Source: Aquitalea magnusonii
Lineage (GTDB): Bacteria; Pseudomonadota; Gammaproteobacteria; Burkholderiales; Chromobacteriaceae
DNA length: 64,000 bases
Assembly: GCF_002217795.2 (NCBI RefSeq)
Contig: NZ_AP018823.1
Span: forward strand, 3,968,001 to 4,032,000
Direction of reading: 5' to 3'
Below are positions 30,020-32,049 of the stretch, piece by piece. The position numbers were made by a program, and so were the translations under genes. The number at the start of each line of letters is the position of its first letter. Within the stretch, counting starts at the first letter, position 1. The notes beneath the pieces were generated by a model. The model was not told the origin of the DNA and made no database searches. It worked only from the letters and a program-made list of their open reading frames with translations.

Positions 30020-31816
30020 TTAAACGTCGCCTTGTGCCTTGACACGCTCCTGACGGTTGCTCAGCTTGTTCAGTGCAGACAGGTAAGCCTTGGCACTGGC
30101 CACGATCACGTCGGTATCCGCACCCTGGCCGTTCACCACACGGCCATCCTTGGCCAGACGCACGGTGACTTCGCCCTGCGATTCGGTGCCCTTGGTGATG
30201 GCGTTCACCGAGTACAGTTCCAGTTCGGCCTGGCTGTTGACCGTGCTTTCGATCGCCTTGAAGGCGGCATCCACCGGGCCGGAACCGCTGGATTCGCAGC
30301 GCTTTTCCATGCCGTGCTCAACAAACACGATGGCCGCTTGCGGGGCTTCGCCGGTTTCGGTGTTGATCTTGAGCGACACGAACTTGTAGTCCTCCTGCAA
30401 GGTGGACACCATTTCGTCCGATACCAGCGCGTGCAGGTCTTCGTCGAAAATCTCGCGCTTGCGGTCGGCCAGGTCCTTGAAGCGGGCAAAAGCCGCGTTC
30501 AGTGCCTCTTCGCTGTCCAGCACGATGCCCAGGTCGGTCAGCTTGGTCTTGAAGGCATTGCGGCCGGACAATTTGCCCAGCGTCAGGCGGTTGGCACTCC
30601 AGCCCACGCTTTCAGCCGACATGATTTCGTAGGTTTCGCGATGCTTGAGCACGCCATCCTGATGGATGCCGGATTCATGGGCAAAGGCGTTGGCACCCAC
30701 AATGGCCTTGTTCGGTTGCACCGGGTAGCCGGTGACGGTGGATACCAGCTTGGAAGCCGGCACGATCTGGGTGGCATCGACACGGGTTTCCACGGCAAAC
30801 ACGTCCTTGCGGGTACGCACCGCCATGACGATTTCTTCCAGCGCGGCATTACCGGCACGTTCGCCCAGGCCGTTGATGGTGCATTCCACCTGACGGGCAC
30901 CGCCAAGTACTGCCGCCAGGCTGTTGGCCACCGCCATGCCCAGGTCGTTGTGGCAATGGGCGGACCAGATCACCTTGTCGCCACCCGGCGTCTTGCTGAT
31001 CAGCTCGCGGAAGAAGGCCTCGGTGGCTCGCGGTACGGCGTAGCCCACGGTATCCGGCACATTCAGCGTGGTGGCACCGGCCTTGATCACTTCGCCAAAG
31101 ATGCGGGCAAGGAAGTCGATATCCGAGCGCAAGGCGTCTTCGGCGGAAAATTCGACATCGTCGGTGTATTCACGGGCAATCTGCACTGCCTTTACCGCTG
31201 CGGCCACCACTTCATCCGGGCTCATGCGCAGCTTCTTTTCCATGTGGATGGGGCTGGTGGCAATGAAGGTGTGGATGCGGCCACGGGCGGCGGGCTTGAT
31301 GGCTTCACCGGCAGCACGCACATCGCGCTCGTTGGCGCGGGCCAGGCTACAGACGGTGGAGTCCTTGATCACCTCGGCAATGGCGCGGATGGCGTCGGCA
31401 TCACCCGGACTGGCAGCGGCGAAACCGGCCTCGATCACATCCACACCCAGACGTTCCAGCTGGCGGGCGATGCGGATTTTTTCTTCCTTGGTCATGGAAG
31501 CGCCCGGCGACTGCTCGCCATCACGCAAGGTGGTATCAAAAATGTAAAGACGGTCGCCCATGTTGAATGCTCTCCCTTGTCCCTGTGCTGCTGTCCCGGC
31601 GGCGTTAAGGTAATCGTTGAAATCGAATTTCTTGCCCTGGCTGGCGGCTAGTTGCGCCAGTTTGTTCAACTGTGACAGCGGCAGGCTGCCACGTTCTCTC
31701 CATTTGTAGATTGCTGCACGGCTGACCGGCTCATCGGGAAACAGCTGACTCAGGCCTTCAGCCACCGCACCGGGGCCACCCAGGTCTTCGATCAGTCGTT
31801 CAATGTCCAATTGCAT
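30020..31816 (-). CDS. leuA: 2-Isopropylmalate synthase with N-terminal helix-turn-helix domain
   Basis: Catalyses the first step of leucine synthesis (acetyl-CoA + 2-ketoisovalerate). Residues 86-598 are a complete long-form Leu[15 protein letters not shown] with the metal Asp, [11 protein letters not shown] with the HxH metal ligands, and a C-terminal regulatory domain. Residues 1-85 are an extra, uninterrupted in-frame domain resembling a small Cro/YdaS-like HTH ([23 protein letters not shown]). Two starts are supported: ATG 31816 with GGAG seven bases upstream, and ATG 31561 (MGDRLYIF) with AAGGGAGAG eight bases upstream. Both fusion and stand-alone LeuA may be made. A promoter and dyads lie upstream. 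A small HTH-like domain on some LeuA proteins may already be catalogued; I cannot confirm this here. Confidence 0.93.
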
Positions 31817-31844
31817 GTTGTGCTCCTGCAGCAAAGTTTTAACC

Positions 31845-31873
31845 AATGTATCGATTGGACAATATTTCGTCAA
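31845..31873 (-). promoter_or_regulatory. Candidate leuA promoter with operator half-site in the spacer
   Basis: Minus-strand TTGACG (31873-31868) and TACATT (31850-31845) are 17 bp apart, and the start ATG follows about 22 bases after the expected transcription start. The 8-mer TGTCCAAT (minus strand, 31861-31854) lies between the two hexamers and is the same element found in the upstream dyad, so a bound protein would block polymerase. Confidence 0.55.
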
Positions 31874-31924
31874 ACCTGCAGTGCAACATGCACCTTAAAA
31901 TCAAAAATCCTGTGTCAAATATGC

Positions 31925-31951
31925 AAATATTAGACATTAAGTCTAATATTT
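31925..31951. promoter_or_regulatory. AT-rich dyad upstream of leuA (copy 1)
   Basis: Perfect inverted repeat AAATATTAGAC (31925-31935) and GTCTAATATTT (31941-31951) with a 5-base spacer. It shares the ATATTxGAC...GTCxAATAT pattern with copy 2. Probably an operator; there is no T-run to make it a terminator. Confidence 0.55.
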
Positions 31952-32021
31952 CATAAAAAATGGCTATTCCTGACACCAAAAACCGTCAGCAACCAGATCT
32001 ACCCCTCAGAACAAATCGGAC

Positions 32022-32049
32022 AGATATTGGACATATCTGTCCAATATCT
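32022..32049. promoter_or_regulatory. Dyad upstream of leuA (copy 2)
   Basis: Perfect 12-bp inverted repeat AGATATTGGACA (32022-32033) and TGTCCAATATCT (32038-32049) with spacer TATC. It holds two copies of the 8-mer ATTGGACA, also present in the leuA promoter spacer and, inverted, within the first leuA codons (31804-31811). Near variants TCGGACA and CCGGACA flank it. Confidence 0.6.

Follow-up and report, generated by a model that had tools for sequence, protein, structure and literature searches.

The leuA gene of Aquitalea magnusonii studied here lies in a stretch of 64,000 nucleotides (contig NZ_AP018823.1, positions 3,968,001 to 4,032,000), which we call the window, and encodes a helix-turn-helix (HTH) domain ahead of a complete 2-isopropylmalate synthase. 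Comparison with related genomes makes it likely that leuA of Neisseriales is a dedicated autorepressor-enzyme which stands in for leucine attenuation and is made alongside plain LeuA. The frame runs without a break over 598 codons from the ATG at 31816 (Table 1), and the long form, HTH-LeuA, matched the 2-isopropylmalate synthase model NF002087 with 898 bits against a cut-off of 729. PF00682, PF22617 and PF08502 (in Pfam HMGL-like, HCS_D2 and the allosteric domain LeuA_dimer) were over cut-off in the LeuA part. By these matches the window LeuA is a 2-isopropylmalate synthase, with enzyme activity and leucine feedback predicted.

The N-terminal domain scored 66.0 bits in the whole protein and 71.2 bits on its own (E 6e-20) against the NCBIfam model NF046037, carph-isopro, which has a cut-off of 38. 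Pfam returned weak Cro-like and antidote-like matches only. AlphaFold2 predicted a helical domain with a mean predicted local distance difference test score (pLDDT) of 82, whose closest folds were, at modest scores, prophage Cro proteins (Xfaso 1, N15) and lambda-repressor-like proteins; these are among the closest known counterparts of the HTH head, and related domains were also found in phage proteins by fold search and PHROG. An initial annotation of this DNA had described a Cro/YdaS-like HTH before a complete LeuA. The complete enzyme and a probable Cro-like HTH stand, and the YdaS assignment lacks support from Pfam: no YdaS model there reached an E value of 1, and carph-isopro fits far better. 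Three among the 50 BFVD fold matches listed carried the name YdaS. HTH-LeuA joins domains of enzyme and DNA-binding type in one chain. Among 33 aligned loci from several families, identity to the domain of the window was 49-92%, with 15 invariant residues including the motif YKWR; the linker ahead of the internal start discussed below was poorly conserved as protein. A full-length AlphaFold model of HTH-LeuA (mean pLDDT 67.5, predicted template modelling score 0.46) was too poor for use, and PADLOC gave no match.

A scan in which each species was represented by one genome found 74 relatives of the domain, every one of them upstream of leuA and 73 in frame with it. At the locus of Paludibacterium denitrificans (L049:4001-4251), HTH and LeuA are in different frames with a stop after 69 codons, which is either a sequencing error or a real break. 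Within the Chromobacteriaceae a LeuA match was present in 60 of 61 genomes, and all 60 encoded the domain, 58 of them in a single uninterrupted frame. Strong LeuA matches were found in 78 of 83 genomes of Neisseriaceae and began at query residue 1-3 in 76; the exceptions were one genome without the domain (G407) and one with a match beginning at residue 42 (G467). For the wider order the figure was 170 of 200 genomes, with at least 25 of the matches listed starting at residue 1-3. A broad spread of the fusion was considered and rejected, since NF046037 run against 185 evenly drawn genomes of the class gave one hit above cut-off, the window's own. Of 115 proteins resembling the HTH part, those that bore a name came nearly all from genera of Neisseriales; Xenophilus sp. 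AP218F carries the label of another genus, yet groups with Chromobacterium in the LeuA tree. Across these genomes the fusion is old and fixed, being near-universal in Chromobacteriaceae and Neisseriaceae.

Presence of the domain goes together with a conserved dyad upstream of leuA. We scored 250 base pairs (bp) upstream against the consensus TTRGAC-N5-GTCYAA, counting as a dyad at least 10 matches out of the 12 positions at spacing 5, in 97 HTH-plus loci (74 from the one-genome-per-species scan, 22 from further genomes, and the window) and in 38 HTH-less loci. Dyads were present in 88/97 HTH-plus and 1/38 HTH-less upstream regions, against about 1.8 and 0.7, respectively, expected from shuffled sequences. 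At the remaining spacings between 2 and 11, counts reached at most 21/97 (N6) and 18/97 (N10) among HTH-plus loci, and at most 1/38 among HTH-less loci. Because HTH-plus loci had been used to refine the consensus by eye, genuine control comes from the HTH-less set and from the alternative spacings. After merging of similar sequences the dyad remained in 61 of 68 HTH-plus against 1 of 35 HTH-less regions, and 95 of the 97 HTH-plus upstream sequences were distinct. The nine HTH-plus loci scoring below 10 belonged to Vogesella (three), Andreprevotia (two) and Neisseriaceae (four). Nine loci whose carph-isopro matches are distant (L077-L085) contained no dyad with at least 11 matches. At seven Neisseriaceae loci the longest upstream open reading frames (ORFs) differ and the dyad was kept in six (L110 has 9 matches), which indicates that at these loci the sites follow leuA and not a neighbour. 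The most divergent fusions seen in Neisseriaceae, two loci of genus g247 (L122, L123) with 64-65% protein identity, retain two N5 dyads 73-74 bp apart. Dyads conserved at leuA genes without the HTH, named in the initial annotation as evidence against self-regulation, were looked for and did not appear, the single case in 38 standing against 0.7 expected by chance. The proposed co-occurrence of HTH and dyads holds for the N5 dyad at 31926-31950 and for the N5 site overlapping the -35 box, and not for the ATTGGACA palindrome. From these comparisons, leuA has a conserved operator-like site at its own promoter that is linked to presence of the domain.

Exact matches to the N5 pattern are rare. The 4.85 Mb genome of the window has one, located at leuA. 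The genus was represented by ten genomes, eight with a single exact match, always no more than about 130 bp from the leuA start, and two without any. Exact matches occur elsewhere too in other genera, at low counts, and 29 of 61 genomes of the family have none; exact uniqueness is therefore claimed for the window's genus only. Another palindrome, TTAGACCGGTCGTCTAA, was seen away from leuA in three Chromobacteriaceae genomes of two genera (G215:C1:238569, G216:C1:239339, G227:C1:210817) and is possibly the site of another regulator.

In the window the N5 dyad, O1, is found some 120 bp upstream of the leuA start. It had been mentioned in the initial annotation as a related dyad beside a perfect 28-bp dyad of ATTGGACA, and proves to be the conserved one. 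The perfect dyad is indeed present, and was rejected as the key operator: its 28-mer was exact in the window alone among the 97 HTH-leuA loci, and both 8-bp halves of ATTGGACA at its spacing (N6 between GAC and GTC) were found only in the window and L002-L004. It is also the sole occurrence of ATTGGACA-N2-8-TGTCCAAT in the genome. All four reported positions of ATTGGACA upstream are exact, except that the copy at 31804-31811 falls within codons 2-5 of the gene; the whole window contains 6 copies against 1.79 expected from shuffles, four of them within 242 bp. The copy said to lie between -35 and -10 was found in the spacer of the likely promoter TTGACG-N17-TACATT (31873-31845). At the copy inside the gene, a possible half-site O3, Leu codon 3 is TTG or TTA in 56 of 71 cases, whereas for Leu codon 8 the count is 21 of 88. 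This bias supports O3 as an operator half-site without being decisive, since codons rich in A/T are frequent close to start codons.

Table 1. Coordinates of leuA, its start signals, promoter and candidate operator sites in the window
Feature	Position	Strand	Basis
leuA long form, HTH-LeuA, 598 aa	30020..31816	-	uninterrupted ORF; NF002087
carph-isopro / Cro-like HTH domain, residues 5-65	31622..31804	-	NF046037
Enzyme part of LeuA; a possible short form would begin at internal ATG 31561-31559	30020..31561	-	ATG conserved
Shine-Dalgarno-like GGGAGAG, internal start	31570..31576	-	energy -8.4 in window
Shine-Dalgarno-like AGGAG, long form	31823..31827	-	sequence; family mean energy
-10 box TACATT	31845..31850	-	consensus scan over loci
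-35 box TTGACG	31868..31873	-	consensus scan over loci
O1, distal dyad AATATTAGACTTAATGTCTAATATT; core TTAGAC-N5-GTCTAA at 31930-31946	31926..31950	.	exact core match; position conserved in most HTH-leuA genes
O2, proximal site TTTGACGAAATATTGTCCAAT, over -35 and spacer	31854..31874	.	TTTGAC-N5-GTC in most relatives
O3, possible half-site ATTGGACA within codons 2-5 (Gln-Leu-Asp-Ile)	31804..31811	.	codon 3 bias
Perfect 28-bp dyad AGATATTGGACAGATATGTCCAATATCT, N6 spacing, auxiliary or genus-specific site	32022..32049	.	two 12-bp arms, 4-bp centre

The promoter itself seems to contain a second site. TTGAC was found near the -35 position in 76 HTH-plus loci, and in 65 of these GTC follows GAC after exactly 5 bases, so that the -35 box makes up half of a second GAC-N5-GTC site, O2. 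In the window O2 is altered, its right half being displaced 3 bp further on than in most relatives. Distances between O1 and O2 were 41, 62, 64-65, 71-75, 81-84 and 113-116 bp in the 66 of 97 loci with both sites above thresholds. The 15 distinct distances showed a peak of phase coherence at 10.5 bp, near whole helical turns, and equal coherence arose in a fraction of 0.0006 among 5000 random sets, a null that ignores shared descent; for the six distance clusters R was 0.85 (p about 0.013). By this spacing O1 and O2 are on the same face of the helix, which suggests contact between protein bound at both sites, and a LeuA dimer or larger assembly could supply it. In several Chitinibacteraceae (L048, L060, L071) a terminator-like hairpin lies between the two dyads, about 67-104 bp upstream of leuA, which places the distal dyad past the point at which the upstream transcript presumably ends.

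The gene also appears to have two starts. The initial annotation had given each part its own ribosome-binding site, with dual starts that would allow two forms, and the dual start is supported: AGGAG and GGGAGAG are present as described, and the codon opening LeuA proper was ATG in 74/74 testable loci, that is, the loci of the 97 with enough sequence. Expressed as pairing energy to the 16S ribosomal RNA tail (kcal/mol), the mean over these loci was -6.9 at the internal start and -6.94 for the long form, compared with -1.65 at 490 other in-frame Met codons. The universal ATG and strong ribosome site, placed behind a poorly conserved linker, argue for a conserved internal start, from which a short LeuA form would be made.

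Many HTH-less relatives encode a leucine-rich leader ORF where the HTH system stands. Using the crude criterion of an ORF of 8-45 codons with three consecutive leucines (LLL) upstream of leuA, we found leaders in 20 of 38 HTH-less loci (2.3 expected) and in 7 of 97 HTH-plus loci, where 8.7 were expected. The former often ended in runs such as LLLR-x-AR (L087-L145 set). Such an ORF was absent from the other 18 HTH-less loci, and chance may account for a few of the 20 positives. Within 330 bp upstream of the window leuA there was no LLL ORF of this length. Rfam, applied to 20 loci (13 of them HTH-less), returned no leucine leader family and four sub-threshold matches only, so the leader ORFs are known from the ORF scan.

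The LeuA tree, with 51 rows, requires three changes of the HTH label, and two genomes are instructive in this respect. The Neisseriaceae genome G407 groups with the HTH-plus G498 (97/93); it had no domain match anywhere in the genome and no dyad of at least 10 matches in 1465 bp upstream. Judged from its position in the tree, G407 is a natural loss in which HTH and dyads have gone together. The opposite is seen in G310 (matched to Chitinimonas sp. BJYL2), which has both HTH and dyad, while the HTH is missing from all nine remaining genomes of its family. In the tree its enzyme part nests in a single clade together with eight of the nine. An LLL leader ORF is present in four of the nine and absent from G310. 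PssA, encoded just upstream in G310, is instead placed among HTH-plus Chitinibacteraceae, which makes it most likely that a single DNA segment brought in pssA, operator and HTH, with a breakpoint near the joint of HTH and LeuA. Being a single linked event, G310 taken alone is no proof that HTH and operator depend on one another.

In the mechanism we propose, LeuA dimers would pair the Cro-like heads of HTH-LeuA, and the paired heads would bind the TTRGAC-N5-GTCYAA dyads at their own promoter, O1 upstream and O2 on the -35 box. Given that both sites are on the same helix face, protein bound there would probably bridge them or bind cooperatively, and would probably block RNA polymerase. The likely co-signal is leucine, which the C-terminal LeuA_dimer domain would sense, and the promoter would most likely be shut while leucine occupies that domain. 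The internal ribosome site would supply plain LeuA, so that the enzyme could be available without the repressor form or mixed with it.

One might instead assume that another, unlinked regulator acts on the dyads, the HTH of LeuA doing something else or nothing and the co-occurrence reflecting shared descent. Dyads and HTH were inherited together in one large clade and moved on one segment in G310, and the binding of HTH-LeuA to the dyads is something that we infer. A single exact site in the window's genome, at leuA, would however be odd for an unlinked regulator; dyads of at least 10 matches persisted in 6/7 Neisseriaceae loci with differing longest upstream ORFs, HTH and dyads disappeared jointly in G407, and the GAC-N5-GTC symmetry fits a dimeric Cro-like domain. 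We regard this explanation as improbable. That the N-terminal domain is a neutral, functionless relic of phage origin, joined to leuA when a stop codon was lost, seems hardly credible: related domains do occur in phage proteins, but the degree of conservation, the invariant residues, the open frame in 73/74 loci and the retention of the domain in nearly every genome of two families all speak against it.

The alternative that HTH-LeuA activates the promoter, or senses a signal other than leucine such as a substrate or product, has a real though minor chance of being correct. The position of O1, well upstream of the promoter, is one that activators use too, and the sign of control and the ligand are again what we infer. 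Nevertheless, O2 covers the -35 box in 65/76 loci, a usual position for a repressor, and the runs of leucine codons in leader ORFs of HTH-less kin, together with the retained allosteric LeuA_dimer domain, point to leucine.

The nearest known kind of system are PutA and BirA, for which the cited text describes one protein serving as metabolic enzyme and direct repressor of the operon of its pathway (PMC6978683). HTH-LeuA would likewise join an enzyme with a putative repressor of its own pathway, and differs by having a Cro/carph-isopro domain, on LeuA. The DNA-binding part is a ribbon-helix-helix domain in PutA and a winged helix in BirA. The exact site found in the window's genome only at its own promoter and the conserved second start also set HTH-LeuA apart from these two proteins. 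Leader-peptide attenuation acts on the same gene and, as we suppose, through the same signal; leader ORFs are at chance level among HTH-leuA genes, which carry the operators in their place. The NF046037 entry provides the domain name, without operator, dual start or function, and the name carph-isopro suggests that the NCBI curators knew of the link to isopropylmalate synthase. Neither a description of an HTH-LeuA regulator nor the term carph-isopro was found in the open-licence literature of PubMed Central, outside of which most subscription journals lie. Among solved LeuA chains the closest is 3rmj, from N. meningitidis; it has only nine residues ahead of the part aligned to residues 87-447 and therefore lacks the HTH head.

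Taken further, the branch of bacteria that contains Neisseria may have replaced leucine attenuation by making the first enzyme of the pathway its own leucine-sensing, DNA-looping repressor, with two starts setting the ratio of repressor-enzyme to plain enzyme. Operator and head would then be a portable block, which moved with pssA onto the resident enzyme in one genome of the Chitinimonas family, where some kin have a leader ORF. We lean slightly towards this wider scenario. If true, this would be a very direct feedback loop, in which the leucine-inhibited enzyme also silences its own gene and no separate regulator is needed. Close relatives would then provide a natural comparison of two solutions for a single gene, RNA attenuation and autorepression by a protein, and one loss and one horizontal transfer can already be seen. 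The loop would also bear on leucine control in Neisseria.
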